Made by a program: the position numbers and the translations under genes | Notes under the pieces: generated by a model | The model's input: the letters and a program-made list of their open reading frames with translations, nothing else | Database searches by the model: none | Told to the model about the DNA's origin: nothing | Shown here: positions 3,496 through 41,086 of the stretch, piece after piece | Position numbering within the stretch: position 1 is the first letter of the stretch | Layout: every line of letters begins with the position of its first letter | From: Paracoccaceae bacterium | Lineage (GTDB): Bacteria > Pseudomonadota > Alphaproteobacteria > Rhodobacterales > Rhodobacteraceae | Direction of reading: 5' to 3' | Assembly: GCA_007694945.1 (NCBI GenBank) | Contig: REER01000128.1 | Location: forward strand, 1 to 41,086 | DNA: 41,086 bases

Positions 3496-5010
3496 TTAGT
3501 CTGCCGGCGCATTGGCCAGCGGTTTTTCCTTGCGGAAAGTGCGTATGATCAGCGCGACCAGCGCGATCGCCGTGCAGGCGATGAAGACCATCGCAATCGG
3601 GCGGTCCAGCAGGATCGCCCAGTCGCCGCGTGACAGGATGATCGACTGGCGCAGGTTCAGCTCCAGCATGGGCGTGATGATGAAGGCCACCAGGAAAGTG
3701 ACGAACGAGTAGTCGTATTTCTTCATCAGATAGCCTAGAAGCGCGAAGACCATCAGGATGATCAGCCCGAAGGTACCATAGCCCTGCAACATCATCCCGG
3801 CAAGGCAGAAGAAGATCACGATAGGGATCACCACATGCGGCGGCACCTTCGTGATCTGGGCAAAGAACATCAACCCGTACCAGCCCAGCACCAGCATGAT
3901 CAGCGAGGCGAGGATCATGCCCGCGAAGATCGAATAGAGCAGTTCCGGTTCGTCGCGCAGCAAGAGCGGCCCCACGGTGATGCCGTGGATGGCAAAGGCC
4001 CCGATCAGTAGCGCCGCCGACACATTGCCCGGGATCCCCAGCCCGAAGAGCGGGATCAGCGCTGCCGGGATCACGGCATTATCCGCCGATTCCGAGGCCG
4101 CGATGCCCTTGGGTTCGCCCTTGCCGAAGCGTTCGGGGTTCTTCGATGCCTTCTGTGCCATGCCATAGGACATGAACGATCCGACTGACGGGCCAAGCCC
4201 CGGCAGCGCGCCGACAAAGGTGCCGATCCCGGTTCCGCGCAGAATTGTCGGGACGATGCCCCGGAAAATTGGCCATGTGATGCGGTCACTCTGATCCTTC
4301 TTGAGTACGACCGACATCGTCTCGCGCTCATAGCGCAGCTTTTCGGATTGCACGAACATCTCGGAGAGCGCCAGCGTACCGATGGCGACCGCGATCAGTG
4401 GCATGCCGTCCATTAACTCGGCATAGCCGAAGGTGAGCCGCGGCAAGCCGGTCTGATTGTCGAGCCCGATGGTGCCGAGAAAAATACCAAAACCCCCGGC
4501 GGCCAAACCCTTGAAAACATTGCCGCTGGACAGACCGGCGATGAACACCAGTGCAAAGGCCAGGATCGCGGCCATTTCATAAGGCCCGAACATCAGGGCG
4601 ACGCGCGCGAAAGGGATCGCTACAAAGATCAGGATGATCGTGGCCAGAATATCGCCGATCACCGAGGCCAGAAGCCCGATCTGCAACGCTGTCTTGGGCT
4701 TGCCTTGCTTGGCCATCGGGTAGCCGTCCAACGCTGTCGCGGCCGAAGACGCCTCACCCGGGGCGTTGAGCAGGATGGCCGAAACCGCCGAGCCCGCTGC
4801 CGAGCCCTTCGACAGCCCGATCAGGAAGGAAATCGCGATGAAGGGCGACATGTAGAAGGTCATCGGGATGGCGATGGCAATCGCAACCGAGCGCGACAGG
4901 CCGGGGATGACGCCCACGACATAGCCCAGCAGCACCCCGCCGCCGATGCCGATGAAAGACGCTAGCGTCAGTGCCTCACCAGCGGCGGCCCCTACAGCAG
5001 AAAAATCCAT
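3496..5010 (-). CDS. tctA: Tripartite tricarboxylate transporter large permease TctA
   Basis: Large inner-membrane permease subunit (504 aa, the usual length of DUF112/TctA proteins) of the sodium- or proton-coupled TTT carboxylate transporter. It is hydrophobic throughout, with about 11-12 membrane segments. It carries the two conserved TctA repeats: GLSKGSAAGSAVSAILLNAPGEASSAATALDG-type near residue 70, and GALPGLGPSVGSFMSYGMAQK...GIAASESADNAVIPAALIPL near 260-320. It lies 3 bp downstream of tctB and 6 bp upstream of the first tctC, so it is one transcription unit. Confidence 0.95.
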   Translation of the reverse strand: MDFSAVGAAAGEALTLASFIGIGGGVLLGYVVGVIPGLSRSVAIAIAIPMTFYMSPFIAISFLIGLSKGSAAGSAVSAILLNAPGEASSAATALDGYPMAKQGKPKTALQIGLLASVIGDILATIILIFVAIPFARVALMFGPYEMAAILAFALVFIAGLSSGNVFKGLAAGGFGIFLGTIGLDNQTGLPRLTFGYAELMDGMPLIAVAIGTLALSEMFVQSEKLRYERETMSVVLKKDQSDRITWPIFRGIVPTILRGTGIGTFVGALPGLGPSVGSFMSYGMAQKASKNPERFGKGEPKGIAASESADNAVIPAALIPLFGLGIPGNVSAALLIGAFAIHGITVGPLLLRDEPELLYSIFAGMILASLIMLVLGWYGLMFFAQITKVPPHVVIPIVIFFCLAGMMLQGYGTFGLIILMVFALLGYLMKKYDYSFVTFLVAFIITPMLELNLRQSIILSRGDWAILLDRPIAMVFIACTAIALVALIIRTFRKEKPLANAPAD

Positions 5011-9029: not shown

Positions 9030-10160
<1,131 letters not shown>

Positions 10161-27650: not shown

Positions 27651-28103
27651 TCAGCGCAGGGCTGCAAAAAAGGCGCGCAGCAGCGCCTCGGACTCAGTGG
27701 CATTGATCCCGTCATAGATTTCGGGCACATGGTGGCATTGCGGATGCGCGAAGATGCGCGGCCCCTGCGCCACGCCGCCCGATTTCGGGTCAGCCGCCCC
27801 GAAATAAAGCCGCCGGATTCGCGCCTGCGCGATGGCAGAGGCGCACATCGGGCAGGGCTCCAGCGTGACATAGAGATCGCATCCGCTCAGTCTTTCCTGC
27901 CCCAGCGCAGCGCAGGCCGCGCGTATCGCGCGCATTTCGGCATGGGCCGTGGGGTCACGGGTCTCGCGCATCCGGTTGCCTTCTGCAGCGATCACCTGAC
28001 CGTCGGGAGCGACGATGACCGCACCCACGGGAACCTCACCCCGCGCCCCTGCGGCGCGGGCCTCGGCAAGCGCCTGACCCATATGGCTGCGGAACTGGCT
28101 CAT
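27651..28103 (-). CDS. tadA: tRNA-specific adenosine deaminase
   Basis: Deaminates A34 to inosine in tRNA-Arg(ACG), needed to read CGN codons. 150 aa with the CDA-fold zinc motifs TAHAEMRAIRAA (His and catalytic Glu) and TLEPCPMCASAI (PCxxC), plus the TadA-type C-terminal GINATESEALLRAFF. Upstream gene of the pair with the ceramidase-like protein. It starts at ATG 28103. Confidence 0.95.
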   Translation of the reverse strand: MSQFRSHMGQALAEARAAGARGEVPVGAVIVAPDGQVIAAEGNRMRETRDPTAHAEMRAIRAACAALGQERLSGCDLYVTLEPCPMCASAIAQARIRRLYFGAADPKSGGVAQGPRIFAHPQCHHVPEIYDGINATESEALLRAFFAALR

Positions 28104-28235
28104 GGCGGCAGGATATCACGCCAGAGGTGGCGAGATGCAAGATGCGTCGCACCAGACGCCGCACCGCAGGGGCGGCGCCCTCGACAAACCATTATCTGAC
28201 GCGCGCCTCTGAGGCAGCCTGCGCGTGTTGACAAA

Positions 28236-28260
28236 GGCCGGGGCGCAAAGCGCCCCGGCC
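28236..28260 (-). terminator. Strong terminator of the orphan binding-protein gene
   Basis: Perfect 11-bp GC stem GGCCGGGGCGC / GCGCCCCGGCC around a 3-base loop. On the minus strand it follows the stop by 30 bases and runs into TTTGTC. It separates this gene from tadA. Confidence 0.8.
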
Positions 28261-28290
28261 CCTCGTGCAGCTGTGCTGCGAAGCGTCCGC

Positions 28291-29433
28291 TTACATGTTG
28301 CAATTCTCGCCATGTACGTCGACATGTTCTTCAAACGCCACACCAACAATCCGGTTGGTGAACTCGCCATCCACTTCGACCACCTCACGAATATACACCC
28401 GCTGGATCGGATGCTGGTTCGGCGCCCAGGCGAAATCACCCCGGACCGAGGTGAAATCCGCCGCCCGCAGCGCCTCGCGGAAAGCGTCACGATCCGAGAC
28501 ATCGGCTTGCGCGGCCGCCGAGAGGATCAGGTTGGCCGTGTCAAACCCCTGGCTGGCATAGAGCGAAGGGATGCGCCCGAACGCCTCGCGGAAGGCTGCG
28601 ACGAATTCGACATTGGCCTCATTGTCGAGATCGGGCGACCATTGGCTGGCATTGAACACGCCCAGTGCGGCCGAGCCGACAGCCGGCAGGATATCCTGGC
28701 TGAATGTGAAGGCTGCGGAAACAATCGGCAGATCAAGGCCCGACTGTTCATACTGCCGCATGAAACTGATGCCCATGCCGCCGGGCAGGAAGATGAAGAT
28801 CGAATCCGCTCCCGAGGCCCGGATCTGCGCGATTTCGGCGGCGTAATCGGTCTGGCCCACTTGCGTGAACAATTCGCCGGCCAACTCGCCCGCGTAATAG
28901 CGCTTGAACCCGGCCAGCGCATCGGTGCCCGCCGGATAGTTCGGCGCCATGATGAAGGTGTTTTCATAGCCCAGCTCATTGGCATAGGCGCCTGCCCCCT
29001 CATGCAGCATGTCATTCTGCCAGGCGACGTTGAAATAGTTCGGATGGCAGTTCGCACCCGCCAGCGCCGATGGCCCGGCATTGGGCGAGAGATAGAAGAT
29101 ATCCTGCGCCACGGTCGAGGGCACCACCGCCATGGCGAGGTTCGACCAGATGATGCCGGTCAGGATATCGGCACGCTCGGACTGGATCATCCGCTCGGCG
29201 ATCTGCACGGCGAGTTCCGGGCGCTGCGCGTCATCCTCGACCACCAGATTGATATTGTGCTCGCCCACCATGTCGAGCGCGAGTTGAAAACCGTCGCGCA
29301 CATCGACACCAAGCCCGGCGCCCCCGCCCGACAGGGTGGTGATCATGCCAACGGTGATATCCTCGGCAGCGCTCATGCTGGCGCAGAGCGCCAGCGCGGC
29401 GCTCAGCCCCGCAATTTTCGGTGTATGTTTCAT
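28291..29433 (-). CDS. Branched-chain amino acid-type ABC transporter substrate-binding protein
   Basis: Periplasmic type I binding protein (Peripla_BP_6/LivK family), 380 aa. Sec signal peptide MKHTPKIAGLSAALALCASMSAAE, then ITVGMITTLSGGGAGLGVDVRDGFQLALD, INLVVEDDAQRPELAVQIAERMI, and the hinge/ligand segments NCHPNYFNVAWQNDML and FIMAPNYPAGTDALAGF. The mature end HGENCNM has a terminal-region Cys. No permease or ATPase gene is adjacent, so it is an orphan receptor. Ligands in this family range from amino acids to amides, urea and aromatic acids; none can be assigned. Confidence 0.88.
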   Translation of the reverse strand: MKHTPKIAGLSAALALCASMSAAEDITVGMITTLSGGGAGLGVDVRDGFQLALDMVGEHNINLVVEDDAQRPELAVQIAERMIQSERADILTGIIWSNLAMAVVPSTVAQDIFYLSPNAGPSALAGANCHPNYFNVAWQNDMLHEGAGAYANELGYENTFIMAPNYPAGTDALAGFKRYYAGELAGELFTQVGQTDYAAEIAQIRASGADSIFIFLPGGMGISFMRQYEQSGLDLPIVSAAFTFSQDILPAVGSAALGVFNASQWSPDLDNEANVEFVAAFREAFGRIPSLYASQGFDTANLILSAAAQADVSDRDAFREALRAADFTSVRGDFAWAPNQHPIQRVYIREVVEVDGEFTNRIVGVAFEEHVDVHGENCNM

Positions 29434-29587
29434 TCCTCTCTCCCTGATGTCGCCGCTGATCCGGCGTTGTCATGTTGTGATCCCGGTCAGAATCATAGCA
29501 ATCATTCCCCTTGCGCTCCCATTGCGCAAGAGGCAGCGCTGCTGGCGACAGAATGCAAACGGCGCGAATACAGAAAGCGGAGAAGCT

Positions 29588-30037
29588 ATGGTGATCTATG
29601 TCGATGGCGATTCCTGCCCGGTGAAAGCCGAGATCGAGCGCGTTGGAACCCGTCACGGCATACAGATGGTAATCGTAACCAATGGTGGCCTGCGCCCTTC
29701 GACCAATCCGCTGATCGAGACGATCTTTGTCTCGCAAGGGCTGGATGTGGCCGATGCCTGGATCGCAGAGCGCGCGACCGCGGGCGATGTGGTCATCACG
29801 GGGGATATCCCGCTTGCCGCGCAATGTATTGGCAAGGGTGCAGCGGTTATCCAGCATGATGGAACAGTGCTGAACGCAGAGAATATCGGCCCCGTTCTCG
29901 CCAGCCGCAATCTGATGACCGATCTGCGCGCCGCCGACCCGCTGCGCCAGTCCGGCGGGCGCGGGTTCTCGGGGGCCGACCGCGCTCAGTTTCTCAACGC
30001 GCTGGAGCGCGTCCTGCGCAGCCACTCGCGCCGGTAG
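29588..30037 (+). CDS. YaiI/YqxD family protein (DUF188, UPF0178)
   Basis: PIN-like fold protein of 149 aa. MVIYVDGDSCPVKAEIERVGTRHG, VVITGDIPLAAQCIGKGA and the C-terminal SGADRAQFLNALERVL match the DUF188 family. Acidic residues in DGD, DVADAWI and TGD suggest a nuclease-like active site, but the function is not established. ATG 29588 with GGAG five bases upstream; the longer open frame back to 29336 overlaps the divergent binding-protein gene and is rejected. Confidence 0.9.
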   Translation: MVIYVDGDSCPVKAEIERVGTRHGIQMVIVTNGGLRPSTNPLIETIFVSQGLDVADAWIAERATAGDVVITGDIPLAAQCIGKGAAVIQHDGTVLNAENIGPVLASRNLMTDLRAADPLRQSGGRGFSGADRAQFLNALERVLRSHSRR

Positions 30038-30050
30038 ACTGTGCGCCCCC

Positions 30051-30079
30051 TTGTCAAGCGTCCCGCGCTTTCGTATACG
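30051..30079 (+). promoter_or_regulatory. Promoter of tRNA-Pro
   Basis: TTGTCA (30051-30056), exactly 17 bp spacer, TATACG (30074-30079), with the tRNA beginning 12 bases after the -10. A good sigma-70 type match. Confidence 0.65.
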
Positions 30080-30091
30080 CCTCGGGACGGT

Positions 30092-30168
30092 CGGAGTGTA
30101 GCTCAGCCTGGTAGAGCACTGTCTTCGGGAGGCAGGGGCCGGAGGTTCGAATCCTCTCACTCCGACCA
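30092..30168 (+). tRNA. tRNA-Pro (anticodon CGG)
   Basis: 77-nt cloverleaf with encoded CCA. Acceptor CGGAGTG pairs with CACTCCG, discriminator A, D-arm GCTCAGCCTGGTAGAGC, anticodon stem CTGTC/GGCAG with loop TTCGGGA (CGG at 34-36, G37), variable GGGCC, T-arm GGAGG-TTCGAAT-CCTCT with a terminal G-T pair. It is intact and lies directly before an integrase-bearing region, a typical setting for an integration target. Confidence 0.95.
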
Positions 30169-30544
30169 ATATTTTCAGTGACTTAGCTGGCCCCTTCAAG
30201 TGTGCTTACTTTAGCGGTAAGCACATAGTAAGCACTGCGGGGGTGAATCGGGGTCATTTCGAGTCGAATTTGGCCCTTTCGGCTAACCGCCCTATTCCCT
30301 GCAGCGCTTGCCGGAACCAGCCGCTTTGGTTTTCTCGATGCGATCCTTGGCGAGATGACAGAAGGCTATGCAAGCAGGAACGCTGAAATCATGTGCCTGC
30401 GATAAGGAAGCCACATGAAAGATTCGATAGGCTGACAATAAGTCTCATCTTACTGCGGTGACCGCACTGCTTACACGACTTTGCCACTTAAGCACTGAAT
30501 CTTCAAAGAGGTTGAAGCTTAAGCGGCTAATACATAGTGTTTTT
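30169..30544. other. Gene-free stretch with clustered TGCTTAC repeats
   Basis: No convincing gene between tRNA-Pro and the tRNA-Arg fragment. The heptamer TGCTTAC or its complement GTAAGCA occurs at 30203-30209, 30217-30223, 30228-30234 and 30468-30474, with a variant TTAAGCAC at 30488-30495 and a further copy at 30731-30737 just before the integrase start. The pair at 30217 and 30228 is spaced 11 bp, one helical turn. This pattern suits arm-type recombinase or excisionase binding sites; inference only. Confidence 0.55.
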
Positions 30545-30590
30545 TGGCGCACCCGATAGGATTCGAACCTATGACCTCTGCCTTCGGAGC
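30545..30590 (-). mobile_element. 3' half of tRNA-Arg(CCG): integration-site (att) remnant
   Basis: On the minus strand this reads from the anticodon loop CTCCGAA through anticodon 3' stem GGCAG, variable AGGTC, a perfect T-arm ATAGG-TTCGAAT-CCTAT, acceptor 3' strand CGGGTGC, discriminator G and CCA. Upstream of the anticodon loop the tRNA stops: no matching anticodon 5' stem, D-arm or acceptor (GCACCCG) follows. A clean break in the anticodon loop is where many tyrosine recombinases cross over. The geometry says the element lies on the high-coordinate side and an intact tRNA-Arg should stand at its other end. Confidence 0.8.
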
Positions 30591-30768
30591 TGGCCTAATG
30601 GCCTTTCCGAAACGTACGACAGAGCCCGCCAGAGCGCGATAACCATCAGTTTTTTATAGACATTCCTGAACGTCGCTCCGAAAGCTCTATCCGAAAATAC
30701 GCCTTGTTTTCCGCCCGCGTGCTTGCGTGGTGCTTACTCGAAACCGGGCGCAGCCGAGGATTGGGAGC

Positions 30769-32106
30769 ATGCCGAAGCTCACGAAACGATTTGTCGAAGC
30801 GGTCGAACCGGAGGTCAAGGGCCAGGCGATCTGGGATGACGAAATGCCCGGCTTCGGGCTCCGCGTTTATCCGTCCGGCAAGCGCAGCTATATCGTCCAG
30901 TACCGCGCACGGGGTCGGTCGCGCCGCTACACGATCGGACTGCACGGCGTCTGGACGCCAGAGACGGCACGACGTGAGGCAAAGGCCCTGCTCGGCCGCG
31001 TCGCCCGGGGCAACGATCCGGCCGAAGAGCGCGACGAGGAGCGTAAGGCAATGACGGTCAAGCAGCTCTGCGAGCAGTATATCGAGGATATGGAGGCCGG
31101 CCTGATCATGGGCAAAGGTGGCCGCCCGAAGAAGGCCTCGACGATCGAGATCGATGTCGGCCGCATCCGCCGACATATCATCCCACTGCTCGGCACACGA
31201 CGCGTCCGCGACATCACCAAGCCGGACATGAACAACCTGATGAAGGACATCATCGCGGGCAAGACCCGCGTCGTTATGAAAACCGAGAAGCTGCGCGGCA
31301 AGGCCATTGTCCGCGGAGGGCGCGGAACGGCCATCCGCACCATGGGGCTGCTTGGCGGAATCTTCTCCTACGCGGTGGAAGCTGGCGTGATCGACCACAA
31401 TCCGACCCACGGCTTGCGCAAACCGAAATACCAAGTGCGCGATCGGAGGCTGAGCGAGGCGGAATACCGGATCCTGGGCGACATTCTGGGACAGGCGCGG
31501 AAGAGCGACCACTTTCGCCTGCATGCCGAAATCCTCTGGATCCTCGCCGTGACCGGTTGCCGACGTGGAGAGATCATCAATCTCAGATGGAGCGAGGTCG
31601 ATATCGAAGGCAGTTGCCTACGCCTGATCGACAGCAAGGAAGGCGCGTCGGTGCGTCCGATCGGGCTTCCCGGGATCGAGTATCTGGAAAGCAAGCGATC
31701 AACCCGAACCGGCGCTTATGTCTTCCCAGGCCAAGGCATCGACAACGCAGTGGGAAATTTTCCGCAAAGCTGGAAGAAGCTCCTGACCGACACGCCGCTC
31801 TGGGATGTGACACCGCATGTGCTCCGACACAGCTTTGCCAGCATCGCGAATGACCTCGGCTTCACCGAGATCACGATCGCTGCCCTGATCGGCCACGCAA
31901 AGGGCTCAGTCACAAGTCGGTACGTGCACACGCTCGATTCGACGCTGATCATGGCGGCTGACACAGTCGCAGGATATCTGAAGGCGTTGCTGGAGGGTGT
32001 GGAGTTCCGGCGAAACACCTACACGCTCGACCGGGAGTCGCGACGGTCGGCGATCGAGCACATGTTGATCGAGTCGCGGCCTGCACCAAAGCCAAGGCTG
32101 CTTTAG
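30769..32106 (+). CDS. int: Tyrosine recombinase / site-specific integrase
   Basis: Integrase of 445 aa from ATG 30769 (MPKLTKRFVEAVEPE). N-terminal DUF4102-like arm-binding domain (PGFGLRVYPSGKRSYIVQYR), SAM-like core-binding domain at about 95-210, catalytic domain at about 220-400. Catalytic residues are visible: Arg265 (TGCRRGEI), His350 and Arg353 (HVLRHSFAS), His376 (LIGHAKG) and the nucleophile Tyr385 (SRYVH). All are present, so the enzyme may be active. It starts 178 bp from the tRNA-Arg fragment, the usual position for an element's integrase. A GTG at 30727 would extend the N-terminus by 14 residues. Confidence 0.95.
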   Translation: MPKLTKRFVEAVEPEVKGQAIWDDEMPGFGLRVYPSGKRSYIVQYRARGRSRRYTIGLHGVWTPETARREAKALLGRVARGNDPAEERDEERKAMTVKQLCEQYIEDMEAGLIMGKGGRPKKASTIEIDVGRIRRHIIPLLGTRRVRDITKPDMNNLMKDIIAGKTRVVMKTEKLRGKAIVRGGRGTAIRTMGLLGGIFSYAVEAGVIDHNPTHGLRKPKYQVRDRRLSEAEYRILGDILGQARKSDHFRLHAEILWILAVTGCRRGEIINLRWSEVDIEGSCLRLIDSKEGASVRPIGLPGIEYLESKRSTRTGAYVFPGQGIDNAVGNFPQSWKKLLTDTPLWDVTPHVLRHSFASIANDLGFTEITIAALIGHAKGSVTSRYVHTLDSTLIMAADTVAGYLKALLEGVEFRRNTYTLDRESRRSAIEHMLIESRPAPKPRLL

Positions 32107-32826
32107 TATCGTGACGCAAGCTCCTGACGTCGAAAGGATCGTATCAGTTCGCAACCTATGGTCGTCGGTAGAGTGCGTCTGGCGCGATCCATCGTTCCAA
32201 AAACTCTACTGGAGCGAGTGCTCCAATCTTGGATTCCGCCAAATCAAGCCGAGAGGAAAATGCCTGGCGTCGTTCCGGCTCAAGACGCGCAAGATGCCCA
32301 TCCGCTTCTCAAAAGAAACCGTCGCACGACATCGCAAGAAACCATTTCTGGATCATCCTGGATCACCTCGGACAGTTGGTCGCGGCTTTGGGAAAAGGCC
32401 CTGTCCACGTTGCGTTGGTCCTCTTCGCGCTCCCAGCGTTCCTGCTTCGCCTCCCATCCGCGTCGTTGTCGTATGGCCTCTGACCTTTACCGAAGTTCGG
32501 TAAAAACACTGCGAAATCGGTCGAAATAATCGTACATCATGGGCGGGCCGCGAAGCGAAGCGGGGGAGAGCGGGGTTCAATCCGCCAAAGGAGTAGCTGC
32601 TGAAGTGCGACCGAAACTAGAAAATTTGCCCAGGAGCAACCAACAACTGCTTGACGCTTCTTTTTTGCACAGCACCTATTTGCTGGAGAACATGAAACAC
32701 AAATAATCGACACCATCTTGCCCGGCCACCTGCCAATGCATTCCGATTGACCGGGGCATTACGCAAACGTACTGGTATTATATGCACTTGAGATATGCAT
32801 TTCTGAACCTCTTGGCGCGCAGGCAG
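32107..32826. other. 720-bp region after the integrase without a confident gene
   Basis: A GTG-initiated 130-codon frame (32111-32503, plus) starts 4 bp after the integrase stop. Its first about 78 residues look protein-like (NLWSSVECVWRDPSFQKLYWSE), but the rest is Pro/Arg-rich out-of-frame-looking sequence. Another frame from about 32310 to 32483 encodes a more natural hydrophobic tail (NHFWIILDHLGQLVAAL), so this may be one small gene broken by a frameshift. I recognise no family. A perfect 19-bp palindrome sits at 32486-32504. The rest, to 32826, is AT-richer and shows nothing recognisable. Confidence 0.35.
32486..32504. promoter_or_regulatory. Perfect 19-bp palindrome TTTACCGAA-G-TTCGGTAAA
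   Basis: Two perfect 9-bp arms about a single central G, followed by AAACACTG. It could be an operator for a dimeric HTH regulator. A hairpin is unlikely because the loop would be too small unless pairs open. No regulator gene of matching type lies within 5 kb. Confidence 0.5.
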
Positions 32827-33405
32827 TCACGTTGTCGCTTTGCTTTCGAAATCAAAAGACGCGCAAATCTTCTTGGCAACCTCTGCGGCGGGAAGGTTTG
32901 AGTTATCGATTCGAAGATAGTTATCGTAAGCAAGCTCGCCAGAGATCGAGTTGAACCGATATTTCTCTTGGATTTCCCGAATATTCTTATCGGACCAGTC
33001 AAGATCACGTTTGGTTGGCTTGTTTGCCAACCTGTTCTCGCTGCGGTTTCGGTCCAACCGCACTTCGAATGCAGCCTCTAGTTCTACCCAGTAAACTTTG
33101 TGCCCTGCTGACCGAAATTGTTCCGCAACCCCATCAATGTATTCACGTTCTCCAGGCTCTCCAAAGGCCCATACAAAGGTGAAAATGTAGCCATTCTCTT
33201 TGTCAGCAGCGAAAGCGTCGAAGAATGCACGCCTTATCTGACCAACAAGTCTGCGACCCTGAGGGGTTCCATAGGAGAAGTATGGAGCCACAACCTCGAT
33301 AGGGACATGATTATGGAACAGCTTGTAGCCCGTGCGCCGTTCAAGCTCTTGGCCCACAGTCATCTTCCCGACAGCGGGCGGACCGATTATGAAGATCAAT
33401 GGCAT
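32827..33405 (-). CDS. P-loop NTPase, small-molecule kinase-like
   Basis: 192-aa protein starting MPLIFIIGPPAVGKMTVGQELERRTG: Walker A GPPAVGKMT at residues about 8-16, then a shikimate/gluconate-kinase-like layout, FFDAFAADKENGYIFTFVWAF with a possible Walker B strand, and a basic lid segment VRLDRNRSENRLANKPTKRDLDW. The C-terminus DNYLRIDNSNLPAAEVAKKI is typical of adenylate/cytidylate-kinase-like AAA_18/33 proteins in accessory DNA. The gene is clearly AT-richer than its surroundings, pointing to horizontal origin. Start chosen at the Met directly before the first strand; no good Shine-Dalgarno. Substrate unknown. Confidence 0.7.
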   Translation of the reverse strand: MPLIFIIGPPAVGKMTVGQELERRTGYKLFHNHVPIEVVAPYFSYGTPQGRRLVGQIRRAFFDAFAADKENGYIFTFVWAFGEPGEREYIDGVAEQFRSAGHKVYWVELEAAFEVRLDRNRSENRLANKPTKRDLDWSDKNIREIQEKYRFNSISGELAYDNYLRIDNSNLPAAEVAKKICASFDFESKATT

Positions 33406-33538
33406 GGGACAAGATACTGCTGGTGGGATGGCTGACTCGTGTGTTGTACACCATATCAACGGCTGCAAAGATAATACAGATGACATCCGTGCATCTGACA
33501 GAATCGGGAAAAAGGACTCGTCGGGCCGCTCCCCCTGA

Positions 33539-33721
33539 CAGCCTCAACCTCCGCTTCCGCCCGAGGCTCCAATCGATCCCCCCGCCTTCGTGGGCCACGT
33601 CGCTGACGTGCTGCCCCATCCGAGGCTCGATCTCGCGCGACCTGGGGACGAGCTGGAAACTGCGGCCGCCGTCCGGGCCGATGCATTCGATCATCGCATA
33701 GCGGTCCGAGGCCAGCCTGTT
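33539..33721 (-). pseudogene. C-terminal remnant of a DUF3363-type (VirD2-like) conjugative relaxase
   Basis: The minus-strand frame reads NRLASDRYAMIECIG..., ...FQLVPRSREIEPRMGQHVS..., ...GGGIDWSLGRKRRLRL. From memory this matches the extreme C-terminus of DUF3363 domains fused to VirD2-like relaxases (pattern RFAMI...FQLVPW...LGQ-VSG...DWSFGRKRGLGL). Only about 60 residues remain of a protein normally 600 or more. The frame begins at the ABC exporter's stop codon and runs on past the expected end without a native stop. It indicates a deleted mobilisation gene. Identification is by pattern memory, not by search. Confidence 0.5.
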
Positions 33722-33747
33722 CGTTACGCAACAAGCTGGCCGCGAGT

Positions 33748-35505
33748 TCAACTTGCCAGCGCCTGACGGGCTCGAAGCGCGCGGTACAAGCCCTGGCTGC
33801 GCGCAAGCAACTCGGCAGGCGTGCCGTCTTCCACGATCTTGCCGCCGTCAAAGACGAGGATGCGGTCCATCCGTTCTACGGTGGCCAAACGATGCGCGAT
33901 CACCAGCGTTGTGCGTCCCTCCATCAGGCGCTCTGCGGCTTCTGCGACCTTTGCCTCGGCCTCGGAATCCAGAGATGACGTCGCTTCATCCATGATCAGC
34001 ACCGGCGCCTGAGACAAGAACGCCCGGGCGATGGCGACCCTCTGGCGTTCGCCGCCTGAGAGTTTCACGCCCCGCTCGCCCACGATCGTGCCAAATCCCT
34101 TCGGCAGTTGGTCGATGAAATCAGCAGCGCCGGCACGTCCTGCCGCCTCACGAATATCATCCATGGCCGCGCCTGGACGGGCATAGGCGATGTTGTCGGC
34201 CAGGGACCGGTGAAACAGAACCGGGTCTTGCGGAACCAGCGCGATATGCCCCCGCAAGGTTTGCAAAGGCACTTGCTGAAGGTCGACCCCGTCCAGCGTG
34301 ATCGTGCCGCCATTGATCTCGTGCAGCCGCTGGATCAGCTTCACAAAGGTCGTCTTGCCCGACCCGGACCGCCCGACCAACCCCACTTTCTGACCGGATG
34401 GTATGGCAACATTCAGACCCGTGAACAGCGGTGTCGCTGCACCCGTGTAGCCATAGTCGACATGGTCGAAGGCGAGTGCCGCCGCGCGCGCAGGTAAGGC
34501 CGCTTCGGGTCTTTTCACAACCGACTGCTCTGGCGTGACACCCATCAGTGCCACCAGTTCTTCGGCATCGTTCACGGCCTTTTGCAGGCCCCGCACATGG
34601 TTGCCCATCTGGCGCAGATACCCGTCCAACATGCCAAGCGCAGAGACCACAAAGGCAATCTCGCCCGCATCTGCCAAGTCGCGTGTATAGGCAAGCAGGG
34701 CACCCCCAAGCACGGCCGCCCTCAGCCCCCAGATCGTGACGTCCTGCGACAGGCCAGACCATGTGCCACGCCGCCATGTGCGCCGCGAGCGGTGTGCCCA
34801 TTTGGCAAGGACAAGGTCCAACCGCGCGTCTTCGCGCGCTTCTCCGGCATGGGCGCGCACGACGCTGTTAGATGTGATGGCATCCGCCACTGCACCAGAC
34901 ACACGGCTGTCCTGCGCATTCGCCAGCCGGGCGGCAGGTGCCACCCAGAACAATGTCAGGCTCAAGGAGATCCCCAGGAAAAGGACTGCCCCCAGACCGG
35001 CGACAAGCCCCACCTCCCAGCGGAAGGCCGAGAGCGTGCCGATCGTTCCCAGCAGGATCAAGCCCGAGGGCAGGAGAGCCAGAAACAGCAGATCGCCCAT
35101 ATCATCCAAAGCCCAGGCGCCGCGCGTGATCTTGCGCACTGTGGCCCCGGCAAAGGCATTCGCATGCCAGTCTGCAGGCAGCCTTTGCACATGCGCAAAG
35201 GCTTCGGCCTCTGCGGTGCGCATCGTCGGAATGGTCAGCTCTATGATGGAGAAGTAGCTCAGGATCTTGGCTGCAATCGACACGACGCCAGCGGCCAGAA
35301 GCGCGGCAAACGCCCCCCAGGGGGGTTGCCCGCCGGCGACGGCATCGACAAGCCGGCCTGTGACAACCGGCACCGCGATATCGGCTGCCGTCGAGATGAT
35401 GACCAGTATCAGGATCGTCACGACCGTGCCGCGCCTGCGCAACCACAGCCGAAACGTGAACGAAAAGACACGCGCAAACGCGCCGTTGGTGGAAATTAGG
35501 GACAT
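33748..35505 (-). CDS. ABC transporter, fused permease and ATPase (type I exporter half-transporter)
   Basis: 585-aa MsbA/MDR-like half-transporter, working as a dimer in the inner membrane. Six hydrophobic segments span about 20-310 (VVTILILVIISTAADIAVPVV, LLFLALLPSGLILLGTIGTL, GLVAGLGAVLFLGISLSL, and others). The nucleotide-binding domain is at about 340-580: Walker A VGLVGRSGSGKTTFVKLIQ, Q-loop VPQDPVLFHRSL, signature VKLSGGERQRVAIARAF, Walker B VLIMDEATSSLD, H-loop LVIAHRLATVERMD. All ATPase motifs are intact. Substrate unknown. No clear Shine-Dalgarno before the ATG. It is flanked by a relaxase remnant downstream and a gene-free stretch upstream. Confidence 0.92.
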   Translation of the reverse strand: MSLISTNGAFARVFSFTFRLWLRRRGTVVTILILVIISTAADIAVPVVTGRLVDAVAGGQPPWGAFAALLAAGVVSIAAKILSYFSIIELTIPTMRTAEAEAFAHVQRLPADWHANAFAGATVRKITRGAWALDDMGDLLFLALLPSGLILLGTIGTLSAFRWEVGLVAGLGAVLFLGISLSLTLFWVAPAARLANAQDSRVSGAVADAITSNSVVRAHAGEAREDARLDLVLAKWAHRSRRTWRRGTWSGLSQDVTIWGLRAAVLGGALLAYTRDLADAGEIAFVVSALGMLDGYLRQMGNHVRGLQKAVNDAEELVALMGVTPEQSVVKRPEAALPARAAALAFDHVDYGYTGAATPLFTGLNVAIPSGQKVGLVGRSGSGKTTFVKLIQRLHEINGGTITLDGVDLQQVPLQTLRGHIALVPQDPVLFHRSLADNIAYARPGAAMDDIREAAGRAGAADFIDQLPKGFGTIVGERGVKLSGGERQRVAIARAFLSQAPVLIMDEATSSLDSEAEAKVAEAAERLMEGRTTLVIAHRLATVERMDRILVFDGGKIVEDGTPAELLARSQGLYRALRARQALAS

Positions 35506-35937
35506 GGGTGTGTCACAGCTTGTTCAGCTGTGCCTTGCTAGGACGTGAGGGTGGATCCACAAACGGGGATCAACTGACCCGAGAAGACTGGCGAAATGCG
35601 CTTCAGTGTCTCAGGTAAGGGGAGCACCAGATCGGTTGCGTCCCGGGAGGAAGCGATAAGCGATTGTCATATGCATCCTCCAAGCAAGGGGTTTCATCGG
35701 TATGTGCGTAGTGACGAAGGCGGTTTCAGTCAAGCACAACTTCTGCGGAAGTTGAGGTCTGATCGACCGTCGTCAGCCGTTTGTCGCTGATAGCGGCAAT
35801 GCGACACATGAGCGCCCCGCTTATGAAGGCTCTGCACAAAATGGAGCGTTCGCCACATCCCGGGCCAGCCCCGGCATTGCAACAGGGCAACGCGCCGATT
35901 GACAGCCGGTCTGCAGCGTTGCGGGGCTTTGCGGTCG
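35506..35937. other. 432-bp region without a recognised gene; leader of the ABC exporter
   Basis: Several short open frames but none with gene-like composition or a recognised family. Next to the exporter start is a small inverted repeat CACAGCT-TGTTC-AGCTGTG (35514-35532), perfect 7-bp arms, which could be an operator or a hairpin in the 5' untranslated leader. The rest may be decayed coding DNA. Confidence 0.4.
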
Positions 35938-36378
35938 CTAGAACAAAAGCGCCTTGGGATAGGGCAGCGCGAGTACGGGCATTTCGGCTTTGGCGAAGTA
36001 TCGAAGCTCTTGGGTCTCGGGATCTGTGGGCGCGAGGTTTCCGGCGGCCAAGGTGCATCGGAAGACGATCACCGTGTATTCCACCAGATGCCCATTGGGG
36101 TAACGGTAGCGAAACCCTTCCCCACCCAAGACGGCTGCGAGCTCGGCTTTGAGAGTGGTCAAGCCAGTTTCTTCAAACACTTCACGATGAAGCGCTTGGT
36201 GCGGGGTTTCGCCAAGTTCAATGCCTCCCGCCGGAAGGCTCCAGCTCTCCGGACCAGACTTTCTCTGCAAGAGCAGCCGCGTCTGCCGGTCATGGATAAG
36301 CGCTGCCACACACGGCAGCAAAAGAAGATCGATGCCGATTTTGGCTCTTAACCCGGCGATGTAGGAGCTTGCTGTCAT
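35938..36378 (-). CDS. NUDIX hydrolase
   Basis: 146-aa pyrophosphohydrolase cleaving a nucleoside diphosphate linked to X. The Nudix box is perfect: GGIELGE at about 52, then REVFEETGL, fitting Gx5Ex7REUxEExGU. The N-terminal strand LLLLPCVAALIHDRQTRLLLQRK and C-terminal ELRYFAKAEMPVLALPYPKALL complete the fold. The LPYPK tail is common in MutT-like proteins of unknown substrate. Divergent from the acetyltransferase gene at 36584. Confidence 0.88.
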   Translation of the reverse strand: MTASSYIAGLRAKIGIDLLLLPCVAALIHDRQTRLLLQRKSGPESWSLPAGGIELGETPHQALHREVFEETGLTTLKAELAAVLGGEGFRYRYPNGHLVEYTVIVFRCTLAAGNLAPTDPETQELRYFAKAEMPVLALPYPKALLF

Positions 36379-36583
36379 TGCTCTATCCTAACCCTCATGG
36401 GCCTGTGCCGGACGAGGGTTTGGCTGCGCTCTTGCGTTGGTGATGCCATAAGCCGACCGGCGCCCGACCGGCGGCGGTCCGGGACGGAGCGGAAGTCCAC
36501 CGCAACTGCCGAGTGGACGATTATGCGGGTCCATAGGCGTCTGGCTGTGGCAATTCCCCCTTGTTTCGTGGCAACCTCCGGCG
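36379..36583. promoter_or_regulatory. Divergent promoter region (Nudix / acetyltransferase) with inverted repeat
   Basis: 205-bp gap between divergent genes. It contains AACCCTC (36390-36396) and GAGGGTT (36414-36420), a 7-bp inverted repeat with 17-bp centre, next to the Nudix gene start. Possible operator; no other signal recognised. Confidence 0.35.
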
Positions 36584-37135
36584 ATGATTGACCACGTCCC
36601 AATACTCAAGAGCGCCCGGGTTCGGCTAAGGCCCTTTCGCAAATCCGACATCGCCGGGCGGCTCGCTCTTGGGCGTTCGCCCGAGATTGTCCGGGGTTTC
36701 GGAGGCTGCCCAGAGGGCCTTGCACCATATACCGAAGAAGACGCACGTCAGTGGGTGGAGCGAAATCTGGCACGCCCAATGGCGTGGGCCGTCGAAGTTG
36801 AAGACCGATTGCTGGGAGAGGTGCGATTGGACGGGGTCGATCTTCATGACCGCCGCGCGCGCCTTGCGATCGGGCTTTATGACGTCAGGCAGCTGTCTCT
36901 GGGGCTGGGTCGTGAAGCCATAAGACTCGTTCTGTCACATGCCTTTCACACCATGGCACTCCACCGGGTCGACCTCCGCGTCATTGCGACAAACGAACGC
37001 GCGATCAGATGCTATCGGGCCTGCGGGTTCGTTGAGGAAGGGCGCGCGCGCGAAAGCGCCAATATCGCTGGCGAATGGCACGACGACATCATCATGGGAC
37101 TACTTGCTTGGGAATATCAGGCCCAGGTCCGGTAG
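36584..37135 (+). CDS. GNAT family N-acetyltransferase (RimJ/RimL-like)
   Basis: 183-aa acetyl-CoA-dependent acetyltransferase. SARVRLRPFRKSDIAGRL is the usual N-terminal strand and helix. The acetyl-CoA loop region is YDVRQLSLGLGREAIRLVLSHAF (pattern QxxGxG degenerate to SLGLG). The C-terminal HRVDLRVIATNERAIRCYRACGFVEEGRARESANIAGEWHDDIIMGLLAWEY is the RimJ/L signature. It probably acetylates a protein N-terminus, an antibiotic or a small amine. ATG 36584; no strong Shine-Dalgarno. Confidence 0.88.
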   Translation: MIDHVPILKSARVRLRPFRKSDIAGRLALGRSPEIVRGFGGCPEGLAPYTEEDARQWVERNLARPMAWAVEVEDRLLGEVRLDGVDLHDRRARLAIGLYDVRQLSLGLGREAIRLVLSHAFHTMALHRVDLRVIATNERAIRCYRACGFVEEGRARESANIAGEWHDDIIMGLLAWEYQAQVR

Positions 37136-37261
37136 CGTGCGATCAGTTGTCGTAGCCAATGAGACGCTCCGGCACGGCGCTCTTCGCGCAGAGCCGCCGT
37201 CTGGTTGTCCCGCGCTGACACTCCGGACAACAGGAGGCCAATGACACTGGGATGGACGGAT

Positions 37262-37882
37262 CTACTTTGGGGCTGAAATTGCCTGAAGGTCGTCATCCAG
37301 AAACCTGGCTACAGGATCATCGGTCCAGACCTGAACTTCGATGTATTTCTCGAACCTTCGTGTGTGGTAGCCCTCATATGCATCATCTGGGTTGCCGTCT
37401 GGAAGGCCATGCTCTGCCACCACATCTGCAAGTTCGTCCATGAAAAACACGCGCTCGTGGTATGGCTCACGGGGATCGGCCCGCAAGCCGTAATCAGGCC
37501 CAAACCGCATCGAGACAAAGCTGTCTGGATAGGTGAAGCTCAGAGCCTCTTTCGGCAATGACCGCCAATCGAGAGTGACGGTCTCTGGATCAGGGTATAG
37601 CCCGGAAAACCATGCGCATTCTCCCAGAACAAAATAATGCGGTGACTGTCTTTCCGGCTTGCCGCCCCGCGCTTCGAAAAGGCTCCGGAGCCTCATTTCG
37701 GTCTTGCGGCGAAAGTCCATGTATCGTTTGCCAAAAACCCGCTTGTAGTTCGGGTTGTCGGCTCTGCGCTGGTTCAGCTTCTCAAGGGTTCCGGCCAACT
37801 CTTCCGGCTTCAGATCGCTGAGGTTCTGGAACGGGCGGTCGCTTCGGGAATAGTAATGTGTGATCACATCAGGCAAATTCAT
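37262..37882 (-). CDS. Conserved-looking hypothetical protein
   Basis: 206-aa soluble protein, start taken at MNLPDVITHYYSRSDRPFQNLSDL. Protein-like throughout, with blocks such as YKRVFGKRYMDFRRKTEMRLRSLFEARGG, HYFVLGECAWFSGLYPDP, LSFTYPDSFVSM and YHERVFFMDELADVVAEHGLPD...FEKYIEVQVW. Similar uncharacterised proteins exist in distant bacteria as far as I recall, but I know no function. No signal peptide or membrane segment. Acidic C-terminus. Confidence 0.7.
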   Translation of the reverse strand: MNLPDVITHYYSRSDRPFQNLSDLKPEELAGTLEKLNQRRADNPNYKRVFGKRYMDFRRKTEMRLRSLFEARGGKPERQSPHYFVLGECAWFSGLYPDPETVTLDWRSLPKEALSFTYPDSFVSMRFGPDYGLRADPREPYHERVFFMDELADVVAEHGLPDGNPDDAYEGYHTRRFEKYIEVQVWTDDPVARFLDDDLQAISAPK

Positions 37883-38008
37883 GGGCGATGTTATCCAGTT
37901 TCTTTGCGCTAGAGTAGCAGACATTCGAACCGAGCGCAGCATGGTCACTGCCGCAAGATGCGGGGCAGCAGTTTGCGTTCCGGCTTGGCAATATCTGGAC
38001 GCCCCAAA

Positions 38009-38668
38009 TCATACTGCGCCAAGCATCGCCCGAAACTCTTCAGCCTTTGCATGCACGAGACTGGACGCACTGGCCGCGGTATGCGCGGCCAGATATCGCG
38101 CCACGATCTGATAGCCCAGAGAATAGCCCAGCCATCGTGGGAGGGGCCCAGTCCCAAAAAACCATGCGCTGTGGTCGTAGTCGACCTGCTCCCACGCTTT
38201 CGCCGCGTCTGCCACATGCGCGCGCAGAACCGTGATCGGAACGCACTCCCACGGCTCTGGCGGCGCGCCATAGAGTTCCTGCGCGAAGTGTCCGGCCAGT
38301 CCTTCCGAGGTCAGGGCATCGCCAAGGGTCTTGCCATACCCGGGCCCGTCCCAACGCGCGCAATGATGCAATTCATGCGCAAACATTCTCTCAATCGCAT
38401 TGTGCTCGTTCGCGCGCAGAGACGGATGGTCGGGGTCCACTGTGAGATAGATCAGGCCCGGCTCCGGTGCCCATCCCACATGCCCTTTCTCAGGAATGAC
38501 AAATGTACCCGCTTTCACGACAACATCGACAGTCCCGAGAGGCAAAAGCCGTGCTGATCTCGAAAACGTCTCTGAAAGCGCGCCTTCCAGCCATGTCTGC
38601 AGGCTGGACAACTGCCCACGTGCATTGAGAAAATGGAGGGCAATCTGGGGCATGTGTCTGTTTAACAT
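38009..38668 (-). CDS. Putative zinc metalloprotease, DUF2268-like
   Basis: About 219 aa from ATG 38668 (MLNRHMPQIALHFLNA; an alternative ATG is at 38653). The zincin motif HELHH is in ERMFAHELHHCARWDGPGYG, followed by TLGDALTSEGLAGHFAQELYG, where the Glu about 24 residues later would be the third zinc ligand (pattern HExxH...E). This arrangement matches DUF2268 'predicted Zn-dependent protease'. The C-terminal RWLGYSLGYQIVARYLA is the usual helix. Cytoplasmic by appearance (no signal peptide). Substrate unknown. Confidence 0.72.
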   Translation of the reverse strand: MLNRHMPQIALHFLNARGQLSSLQTWLEGALSETFSRSARLLPLGTVDVVVKAGTFVIPEKGHVGWAPEPGLIYLTVDPDHPSLRANEHNAIERMFAHELHHCARWDGPGYGKTLGDALTSEGLAGHFAQELYGAPPEPWECVPITVLRAHVADAAKAWEQVDYDHSAWFFGTGPLPRWLGYSLGYQIVARYLAAHTAASASSLVHAKAEEFRAMLGAV

Positions 38669-38724
38669 GCGGCGGGCGGCTTGAGAACAGACCAGCCTCG
38701 GATCACAACCGCTCTGATGAGCGA

Positions 38725-39735
38725 CTACGCGCAATCAGGTGCTCTGATGAACCATGTGACCGCGTTTTTGTAGCCTGCTTTTCTCAAAAGCTCGATCTTC
38801 GATGTCCATGCGGCCGGGCATACGACCAGAACCGACGTATTGTCGCGCCTGCCGCGCGCTGCTTCTGCCGCCTCAAACAGTGCAGCAGCCTGGATGCCAT
38901 CAGCCTGAAGGGTGCGGGCATCCACCAGCTCTTCGTGGAAAAAATCGTCGATCACGCCAACGGTCGCGATGTCGTGTGGGGGAGGGAAATGCAGCGGGGT
39001 GGCGGGCTGAGAGATCGCGTAGCCCCGGACCCTCCCGGCGGTTTCCGAGACGAACAGGTCGCGGTCGCTCAGGGTCAGGCTGCGCTTCATCCATGCGCCA
39101 AACCGGATGTCCGCCTCGACATGTGGCCTCCAGAACAACGGGTGCAGATCATTCAGGATCTGCCTGTTGGTGGCGCTCGATGCAACAATAGAGGGCACAT
39201 CTTCGGACAGGGCCTGTCGCACATCGGGAACAGCGCTGGCAGTGCTCAGACCGGACTTGGCAAAATACATGGTGAGCGGCTCTAACCCCTGGCGCATATA
39301 GTGGCGTTCCCAATCCCCCCCAGCCACACTTGACGCCAGAAGGATCCGGGCACCGGCATCGGCCAGATCGGCTGCGGTGGCGTCAAACAGCTTGCTCCGC
39401 GTTTCAGGTGGGGCATTGGCTGCGATACAGCAGTCTTCCATGATCAGGCCGGGTGGACCGAACTCCCCTGCATAGATGGGGGGAACAGGCAGAAGAATGG
39501 AATGCGTCACTCCAATGATGCGCCGGTCAGCTTCCGCGACAAGCCATTGCTGGCGGAAGGGTGGATTGTCGGCCTCCAGCGCCGTCGTCACGCTGGCGAG
39601 GATTTTCTGCCGCGGGTCATTGTGCAGTTTCCACAAATCAGGATCTCGCGCGCAGCGGCTTTCGGCATCGGCCAGCAAGAGGTCCGCGAGTGCGGCGAGA
39701 TCGGAAAGCCCGGCGGGCCTGATGGTCATCATCAT
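38725..39735 (-). CDS. GNAT-like acetyltransferase, two-domain length
   Basis: 336-aa protein starting MMMTIRPAGLSDLAALADLLLADAE, a standard GNAT opening. GGAAGGAG lies four bases upstream of the first of three tandem ATGs. The first half has RRIIGVTHSILLPVPP and EFGPPGLIMEDCCIAANAPPETRSKLFDATAADLADAGARILLASSVAGGDWERHYMRQGLEPL, fitting a GNAT core. The second half (about 190-336) ends HNTSVLVVCPAAWTSKIELLRKAGYKNAVTWFIR-like and may be a second degenerate GNAT. Divergent from the LysR gene, which likely regulates it. Confidence 0.78.
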   Translation of the reverse strand: MMMTIRPAGLSDLAALADLLLADAESRCARDPDLWKLHNDPRQKILASVTTALEADNPPFRQQWLVAEADRRIIGVTHSILLPVPPIYAGEFGPPGLIMEDCCIAANAPPETRSKLFDATAADLADAGARILLASSVAGGDWERHYMRQGLEPLTMYFAKSGLSTASAVPDVRQALSEDVPSIVASSATNRQILNDLHPLFWRPHVEADIRFGAWMKRSLTLSDRDLFVSETAGRVRGYAISQPATPLHFPPPHDIATVGVIDDFFHEELVDARTLQADGIQAAALFEAAEAARGRRDNTSVLVVCPAAWTSKIELLRKAGYKNAVTWFIRAPDCA

Positions 39736-39830
39736 TTCACTCCTTCCACCTTCGACAACATGTCGTGACGGCGCCCGGTTGTGATCGCAGACCACCGGCG
39801 CGTTGACAAAGCATCAAAACTGCAGAAGGT

Positions 39831-39845
39831 GTTAGAAAATCTAAC
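39831..39845. promoter_or_regulatory. LysR-type operator (T-N11-A box)
   Basis: GTTAGA-AAA-TCTAAC: perfect 6-bp arms and a TTAGAAAATCTAA core that fits T-N11-A exactly. It lies 14 bp upstream of the LysR start and 96 bp from the divergent acetyltransferase start. A TTGACA at 39803-39808 lies nearby. It fits an autoregulated divergent LysR promoter. Confidence 0.7.
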
Positions 39846-39858
39846 GCCTTGGTGCGGC

Positions 39859-40770
39859 ATGGCCCAAAACGTAAACCTGAATGCAGTGCGGGTGTTTGCC
39901 GCTGCCGCACGCCATGGCAATTTTCAGCGCGCAGCAGAGGTCTTGAACCTTTCGCATGGCGCCGTTTCGCAACGCATCAAGCAGCTTGAACTGGATCTCG
40001 GGGTCGTGCTCTTCGAGCGCAAGGCACGCGGGGTAAGCCTGACGAAAAACGGCGAAAGGTATCGCGATGCGGTTGAAAAAGCGCTCTCTATTCTCGCCAC
40101 GGCCGGTGCCGACCTTGAGCGTGCAGGTGATCAGGTCACGCTTCACCTTGGGCCGTCATTCGCGTCCAGATGGTTCATTCCCCGGCTGAAAGCCTTCACC
40201 ACCCGGTATCCGGACCTCACCCTGACCACCGAGGTCCACCAGAACCTGATCAAACGACGGCTTGGGCGAAACGAGATTGCAATCTGGCCGGGAAAGATGG
40301 CGGATCGGGTTGCGGGCCACCATGTGAGGCAGCTTGCGGATGTGCAGCTTGTTGCAGTGTGCAACCCTTATCTTCTCAAGGCCCATTGTCCGATGGATAT
40401 CGAGGCGCTGCTGACATTACCGCTCTTGCAGGATGGGCATCGTAGATGGGAACGTCTGATCGAGGGGTCCGGCCATCGTGCCAAGCCCAGCTTGCTGAAT
40501 TTTGGCCGGGCAGCCCTTGCACTGGACGCAGCAGTCAAGGGTCACGGGGTAGCCATCGCACCGACCTATATGATTGATGAGGATCTTGTCGCAGGACGGC
40601 TTGTCGAACTCTGGCGCAGCCCGGATATTGCGGACGAATTTCTCTTCATGTCGTGGTCGGAACATGAGAACGGCTCGAGGCAGTTGCAGCAGACGGTTGA
40701 CTGGATCTTATCAGAGTTCGGCCTGGATGCGGAGTTCAGAGGAGCCCGAAGGTATCCAAGACGTCCTTGA
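39859..40770 (+). CDS. LysR family transcriptional regulator (GcvA-like)
   Basis: 303-aa regulator from ATG 39859 (MAQNVNLNAVRVF). The winged HTH is at residues about 5-65: NFQRAAEVLNLSHGAVSQRIKQLELDLGVVLFERKARGVSLTKNGERY. The co-inducer domain is GcvA-type: LHLGPSFASRWFIPRLKAFTTRYPDLTLTTEVH, VCNPYLLKAH, AALALDAAVKGHGVAIAPTYMIDEDLVAGRLVELW. The last residues (GARRYPRRP) run into an integrase remnant read in another frame, so the natural C-terminus may have been replaced. Likely target: the divergent acetyltransferase and itself. Confidence 0.92.
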   Translation: MAQNVNLNAVRVFAAAARHGNFQRAAEVLNLSHGAVSQRIKQLELDLGVVLFERKARGVSLTKNGERYRDAVEKALSILATAGADLERAGDQVTLHLGPSFASRWFIPRLKAFTTRYPDLTLTTEVHQNLIKRRLGRNEIAIWPGKMADRVAGHHVRQLADVQLVAVCNPYLLKAHCPMDIEALLTLPLLQDGHRRWERLIEGSGHRAKPSLLNFGRAALALDAAVKGHGVAIAPTYMIDEDLVAGRLVELWRSPDIADEFLFMSWSEHENGSRQLQQTVDWILSEFGLDAEFRGARRYPRRP

Positions 40771-40861
40771 CGGCGTCAAATTCAAACACACAACCTATGC
40801 ACTGGATAGCACTGCGCGGCGCGAGCACCTTTCGCGGTTCCTTGCGCAGTCAAGTGCTTAG
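40754..40861 (+). pseudogene. C-terminal remnant of a second tyrosine integrase
   Basis: In the frame ending TAG at 40859-40861 the reading GIQDVLDGVKFKHTTYALD...ARREHLSRFLAQ aligns with the C-terminus of the integrase at 30769-32106 (LLEGVEFRRNTYTLD...RRSAIEHMLIES). Shared are L-x-G-V-x-F, TY-x-LD and an RR pair in the same order and spacing. Only about 35 codons survive, with no catalytic residues. They overlap the end of the LysR frame by 17 bp. It is diverged from, not identical to, the intact integrase, so it comes from a related but different element. Confidence 0.65.
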
Positions 40862-41086
40862 TCGAACTTCTGCGTTCCTCCAGACGCGAACAATGTCCAT
40901 CGCCTTGCGGGCTGGGCTGCCAGAGGAGGGAAAGCCTTTCGGACTTCCTGTTCACGGGTATGCCACTACTCTGAGGTGGCTGACACTTCAGCGTCAGCGC
41001 GGAAAATAGAGCAAGAGTTCGGCGACTTTCGCCGTGACGGGTTTGGAGGTCGAGAGAGAGGCTTTCGGCCGCCCGTCGCGGGAGAA
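40862..41086. other. Window end: no complete gene, possible leader of a gene beyond the edge
   Basis: No recognised protein. GCTGAC (40979-40984) and GTCAGC (40993-40998) form a 6-bp inverted repeat. The last bases contain a purine tract GGAGGTCGAGAGAGAGG and end in GGGAGAA, which resembles a Shine-Dalgarno right at the edge, so a plus-strand gene may start just past 41086. Confidence 0.3.

Follow-up and report, generated by a model that had tools for sequence, protein, structure and literature searches.

The window analysed here is the entire contig C135 (41,086 bp) of a Paracoccaceae bacterium genome in 145 contigs (95.4% complete, 2% contaminated), and the far end of the element is therefore not readable in it. 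Its features, listed in Table 1, centre on a tRNA-Arg(CCG) 3' half and a tyrosine integrase. On the minus strand, 30545-30589 reads CTCCGAA GGCAG ... CCA, with anticodon CCG. A preliminary description had read this stretch as a 3' half cut at the anticodon loop and lacking its 5' half. The half and the place of the cut stand, while its end had been set 1 nt too far, base 30590 lying outside it; the 5' half is absent from the window and closes a separate contig of the same genome, C126. ARAGORN reports a single tRNA in the window, the complete tRNA-Pro(CGG) at 30092-30168, which was tried as an integration target and rejected, its 3' end being unique in the genome when up to 3 mismatches are allowed.

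Table 1. Features around the tRNA-Arg(CCG) half, with positions counted in the window
Feature	Position	Strand	Basis or remark
Complete host tRNA-Pro(CGG), chromosomal neighbour outside the element	30092..30168	+	ARAGORN; 27952-30168 matches contig C147 of genome G045
Left flank, like DNA after the element-borne tRNA in sister genomes	30333..30544		75-78% over 173-304 bp, tRNA half included
Host tRNA-Arg(CCG) 3' half, right-end junction of the element	30545..30589	-	Anticodon loop to CCA, 45 nt
10-bp core CTCCGAAGGC, common to both junctions	30580..30589	-	Junction comparison in relatives
Element end, core to integrase, similar among relatives	30590..30768		Upstream sequences compared by eye
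Tyrosine integrase, 445 aa	30769..32106	+	Profile matches and motifs; earlier in-frame GTG of the listed ORF at 30727
First 9 kb of cargo: ABC transporter, NUDIX, LysR-type regulator, unknowns	32107..41086		Runs off the contig

A 42-nt pattern of the tRNA-Arg half occurs once in the window's genome at up to 3 mismatches and has no second copy (a control pattern occurs 0 times), so that the second tRNA with the same 3' half that had been expected was not found in this genome at that threshold. Arginine tRNAs with the anticodons ACG, CCT and TCT are present, and no intact tRNA-Arg(CCG) is among the 34 tRNAs found in the bin, a gap that says little by itself since Trp, Tyr, Glu and Ile tRNAs are likewise absent from those 34.

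The tRNA half and the integrase across loci

The preliminary description of an intact integrase beside the half held up. The protein, 179 nt from the half, matches Arm-DNA-bind_3 (5.8e-17), Phage_integrase (1.9e-15) and two more integrase models, which together represent the arm-binding, core-binding and catalytic parts. It contains the motifs TGCRRGEI, HVLRHSFAS and IGHAKGSVTSRYVH, which we take to be the catalytic R, HxxR, H and Y. Two arm-like repeats (GTGCTTGCG and GTGCTTACT, at about 30719-30738) lie between the core and the integrase gene and would bind the integrase as arm sites.

A scan of the genome collection for related integrases gave 52 loci, which are not independent, as some are close kin. 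In 40 of them, a half differing at no more than 7 of its 45 positions is present, its CCA end 222-225 nt ahead of the integrase match; this fixed spacing puts the linkage of half and integrase beyond chance. The 12 others comprise five distant integrases (22-26% identity) and seven loci in which the integrase match or the upstream DNA is cut off or rearranged. Across loci, the DNA from the half to the integrase is alike, and the DNA beyond CCA differs. The proposals that integration takes place at tRNA-Arg(CCG), that the element extends rightward, and that one boundary of the island is defined to a few bases are all borne out, the junction lying at the 10-bp core. It is very improbable that the fragment is an old scar unrelated to the integrase, or that the integrase's element uses tRNA-Pro(CGG), even with that gene 376 bp to the left of the half and arm-like repeats adjoining its 3' end: the distance from half to integrase stays constant while the outer flank varies, and ARAGORN reported no tRNA-Pro in the 52 loci. 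A tree of the integrases, drawn without support values, joins the window as a pair with Natronohydrobacter, in which the host tRNA is split by the element; their cluster also holds HLUCCA08 (likewise split), Nioella and two bins, one of Paracoccaceae and one misplaced.

The far end in related genomes

Further copies of the half were searched for in 27 chosen genomes, and the 5' half with the core in 42 genomes including the window's own, with a match in 40. In many relatives, the far (left) end runs in the order host flank, host 5' half, core CTCCGAAGGC, GATGTCAAG-like element DNA with two GTAAGCA repeats, complete tRNA-Arg(CCG) and cargo. A complete tRNA-Arg(CCG) follows all 32 distinct chromosomal left junctions (30 of 30 by ARAGORN, plus two later ones), a count that would miss junctions without any tRNA sequence because most loci were fetched by tRNA-half patterns; a search with the junction only gave a single match, likewise with a tRNA behind it. 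The host 5' half precedes the core at 29 of the 32. At the remaining three, the contig starts there (L188), the junction lies inside a protein gene (L113), or it follows the apparent end of another element (L119). The distance from the core to the carried tRNA is 124-137 bp, with two GTAAGCA repeats, in 28 of 28 scorable cases, and both element ends are found on one contig in nine genomes (G001-G006, G010, G027, G030), 36 to 91 kb apart. The exact left-junction pattern was found in 1 of 385 genomes of a class sample, at a junction identical to that of G039 and probably in the same genome, and within the window's genus (24 genomes, its own included) left ends were seen in G042, G044, G045 and G049.

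If one gene was split by the element, the acceptor stem of the 5' half must match that of the 3' half at the other end. In the sequences extracted from the loci, the acceptor stems of the two host halves match at 7/7 positions in 22 of 25 genomes, and incompletely in G002, G014 and G016. Shuffled pairings gave a mean of 7.8 and a best of 18, and none of 100,000 reached 22, which is not to be read as a probability since related genomes are counted several times. The telling pairs come from G006 (GGTCCCG with CGGGACC), G017 (GGACCCA with TGGGTCC), G004 and G033. The anticodon stem pairs at 5/5 positions in 24 of the 25, failing in G010. This comparison leaves out G020 (whose left end was not recognised by the script), G011, G039, G041 and the genomes of the window's genus. 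The carried tRNAs have 7/7 acceptor and 5/5 anticodon-stem pairs in all 28 scored, and among the host 5' halves the D-arm stretch is changed in 4 of 29.

For one relative, Nitratireductor sp. pb3 (G001), the chromosome is a single contig of 3.70 Mb. Among its 44 tRNA matches, the carried copy is the only tRNA-Arg(CCG), and none is a tRNA-Arg with the anticodon TCG. Under the usual decoding rules, CGG codons then depend on tRNA-Arg(CCG), and in this genome on the carried tRNA. A search for the promoter of the carried tRNA in 32 aligned left ends gave a TTG triplet near position 70 in most of them with weak consensus scores, and the best promoter-like site upstream of the tRNA varies among them.

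The nature of the element was explored through scans of 10 chosen proteins each from the split-type islands of Jannaschia (G002) and Marinicaulis (G006). The former matched the DUF3363 (1.4e-86), T2SSE, TraG and TrbE models, with a relaxase match below its cut-off, and the latter a T4SS-DNA_transf coupling protein, TrbI, TrbE, T2SSE and DUF3363. No conjugation gene was found among the 10 window proteins scanned, which cover 9 kb of the island, and in a phage collection no recorded integrase reaches 60% identity. Four plasmid records, three from Agrobacterium and one from Sphingopyxis, match the left-end query with its tRNA over at least 80% of its length; in the two Agrobacterium records that were read the left end lies outside a tRNA gene, and the Sphingopyxis one has a host-type 5' half. 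On the Agrobacterium plasmids pAtK224b and pAt3 (L333, L334, L337), the left end and tRNA-Arg(CCG) stand at a site without a tRNA 5' half, and pAtK224b has an integrase at 60% identity ~59 kb from the left end in fitting orientation. Bradyrhizobium septentrionale plasmid pBs162S2a (L336) carries an integrase at 66% identity with a tRNA-Arg 3' half of the same kind before it.

Several loci depart from the common arrangement. At L113 (G011), the left end and carried tRNA lie at position 1322 inside a gene with a KDPG-aldolase match (E 1.5e-15) that contains the core; this is a secondary integration site. Hyphomonas pacifica (G020; L119/L156) has two elements apparently in tandem; the second has GTCAGCAC repeats and a tRNA-Arg(CCG) of its own whose acceptor stem differs, and may represent another family with the same strategy. 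In Thalassococcus profundi (G041; L083/L192), an intact carried tRNA stands next to the host 5' half, and ~1.8 kb away is an integrase match that spans residues 35-195 only; this may be a small element that has decayed but retained its tRNA. Woodsholea (G005; L073) has two identical 3' halves, at approximately 3665-3709 and 9777-9821 of the locus; the second is 6.1 kb outside the integrase-side half, and the DNA before it is not the end of this element; the locus is an array with another element.

Beside the window's own half, the 376 bp from tRNA-Pro(CGG) to the half (30169-30544) carry arm-like GTGCTTAC/GTAAGCAC repeats close to either end and are similar to the DNA past the carried tRNA in G042, G045 and G049. 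In G045, whose contig C147 matches window positions 27952-30168 at 95% over 2217 bp, the counterpart of this interval measures 6.7 kb and includes methyltransferase and regulator genes. The interval perhaps consists of fused remnants of other integrative elements, and judging by its sequence the part at 30333..30544 is perhaps a remnant arm of one.

The window's own left end

C126, a contig that carries suf genes, closes with the 5' half that the window lacks, then the core and a further three bases, 45 bases in all, ending in ...GGCAGA. In this genome, the core closes C126 and opens the 3' half, and the C126 5' half pairs with the window's 3' half at 7/7 acceptor and 5/5 anticodon-stem positions. 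The element's left end is missing from the assembly: a search of the genome with the left end of the closest relative returned only the C126 tail, the 3' half, other tRNA-like stretches and one 16-bp chance match. The end of C126 is compatible with a filled or an intact site. If the host tRNA is split, C126 should be followed by GGCAGAAGTCAAG and then tRNA-Arg(CCG). In an ordinary island, the element would bring an identical 3' half that restores the host tRNA at the far end, and the fragment would be the original 3' half, displaced; were the window of this kind, C126 would run into GGCAGAGGTCATAGG leading into the island.

The nearest relatives favour the split form. The sister genome G045 has the same flank as C126 (306/313 bases), then AGTCAAG after GGCAGA, then the carried tRNA; its 3' half is identical over 45 nt and stands at the start of the contig that matches the window's left side. 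A carried tRNA is also present at the left end of the closest element (Natronohydrobacter, L039; G044, from the window's genus, matches the integrase end at 99% over 556 bp). That the far end would hold an intact host tRNA sharing the fragment's last 46 nt, as the preliminary description expected, is thus not the likeliest outcome: in many relatives, Natronohydrobacter and the G045 site among them, the host tRNA is split and the element has its own ~137 bp inside the far junction. Two contigs of G042 share the 94 bases ahead of the core (62 of flank, 32 of 5' half) but continue differently, C88 with an intact tRNA and C176 with a filled junction; they agree for 107 bases and diverge after GGCAGA. 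In G057, a contig that stops on GGCAGA overlaps by exactly 121 bp another with an intact tRNA. C126 may stop at GGCAGA because the sample contains both occupied and empty sites, a coexistence that the G042 assembly suggests.

The suggested comparison with relatives came out both ways: many are split and carry a tRNA, and two islands that were checked end to end rebuild it. The ordinary form is exact in Cucumibacter (G008; integrase 85%, island 34.1 kb) and Mesorhizobium (G012; integrase 64%, island 23.8 kb), each with only two cores, so that the same integrase family serves two architectures; in the integrase tree, Cucumibacter is placed within a group of split-type elements, which implies that the form can switch. 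Nioella (G018, 95% to the window's integrase) and Marivita (G037, 94%) have an intact, host-flanked tRNA with a 3' half equal to the fragment, and the ordinary form may fit them, with their element ends sitting on different contigs. Further intact tRNAs are found in G015, G038 and G040, with one copy each in G031 and G035, and the ordinary form probably occurs in more islands than those of Cucumibacter and Mesorhizobium. For the window itself, we consider it unlikely, though well above the scar or tRNA-Pro alternatives: against it stand the split form in Natronohydrobacter (97%), HLUCCA08 (96%) and the sister site of G045, the bin with its 5' half and no intact tRNA-Arg(CCG), and the end of C126 at the exact base where the intact and filled sites of G042 diverge.

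With a probability of roughly 0.8, then, the window is the integrase end of an element that splits the host tRNA-Arg(CCG) gene and carries its own complete copy inside its other end. In the proposed mechanism, the integrase would recombine within the 10-bp core in the anticodon loop of the host gene. Since this core is too short to rebuild the gene, the host tRNA would be left as two dead halves, one per end, for which the element would compensate with a whole tRNA-Arg(CCG) gene and upstream DNA of its own, immediately within the other end. From the relatives, we infer that the window's own left end carries this tRNA, which the cell would express and require once the element is integrated, so that the host probably becomes dependent on the element. 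The element may also be conjugative, by analogy with the two relatives that have conjugation genes, none having been found in the window's 9 kb.

Significance and comparison with known systems

On balance, we favour a broader reading in which a family of alphaproteobacterial islands of conjugative type replaces the host's only CGG-reading tRNA gene with a copy of its own, is thereby hard to lose except by exact excision, has spread one tRNA-Arg(CCG) between orders and, as G042 suggests, coexists naturally with empty sites. If true, this would take tRNA-carrying integration beyond phages to conjugative-type islands, explain why such islands carry a tRNA gene, and provide both a natural lock against island loss and a route for horizontal replacement of an essential tRNA gene. 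The host halves, free to decay, could act as an integration clock. It also carries a warning: a search for an intact tRNA with the fragment's 3' half, such as the check proposed in the preliminary description, overlooks islands of the split kind.

The closest parallel is the tRNA-dependent lysogeny of actinobacteriophages, for which the available text of Guerrero-Bustamante and Hatfull 2024 (PMC10865867) describes related phages that rebuild or carry the tRNA, as well as secondary sites in protein genes. The present elements share with it, and with the phages of PMC8631192, a short core, a split host tRNA and a carried tRNA, and the presence of two architectures within one integrase family recalls the phages of PMC10865867. 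The window's integrase is a tyrosine integrase, the core in the host tRNA gene is short (~10 bp), with CTCCGAAGGC at both junctions in relatives, and the host tRNA is not rebuilt at the junction in split relatives but is rebuilt in G008 and G012. A temperate phage is not indicated, given the conjugation-type genes among the chosen proteins of G002 and G006; the window's island is seen for 9 kb. The published cases, in the part of PMC10865867 available, are temperate phages of Actinobacteria that use tRNA-Lys, -Ile2 and -Leu, with mutants as proof, whereas ours are alphaproteobacterial islands at tRNA-Arg(CCG), two with conjugation genes, known from sequence alone.

Phages of Alphaproteobacteria offer further comparisons. 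According to the available text of PMC8631192, Rhizobium phages of the vTRX32-1 group have a 12-bp core inside tRNA-Leu and carry a full tRNA-Leu, presumed to be a replacement, which does not contain the 12-bp motif; in contrast, 29 of the 34 carried tRNA-Arg copies retain the exact core here, which would expose them to further insertion. For Sinorhizobium meliloti, prophages in tRNA genes are treated in PMC11476347, the available part of which discusses replacement of the host tRNA gene and cites tRNA-dependent lysogeny, and the available part of PMC12429752 reports no features of tRNA-dependent lysogeny for phiLM21-like prophages; these elements are alphaproteobacterial as here, but phage-related. 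Standard tRNA-integrating islands, as described in the available text on Islander (PMC4383910), share the tRNA target, the tyrosine integrase and the displaced fragment at one end. In the open-licence literature, we found phage cases only, and no island or ICE with a carried replacement tRNA. What appears to be new is thus the conjugative-type setting, the tRNA species and the spread across orders, along with the position of the tRNA, which follows the arm-like repeats immediately within the left junction, and the retention of the exact core by most of the carried tRNAs.
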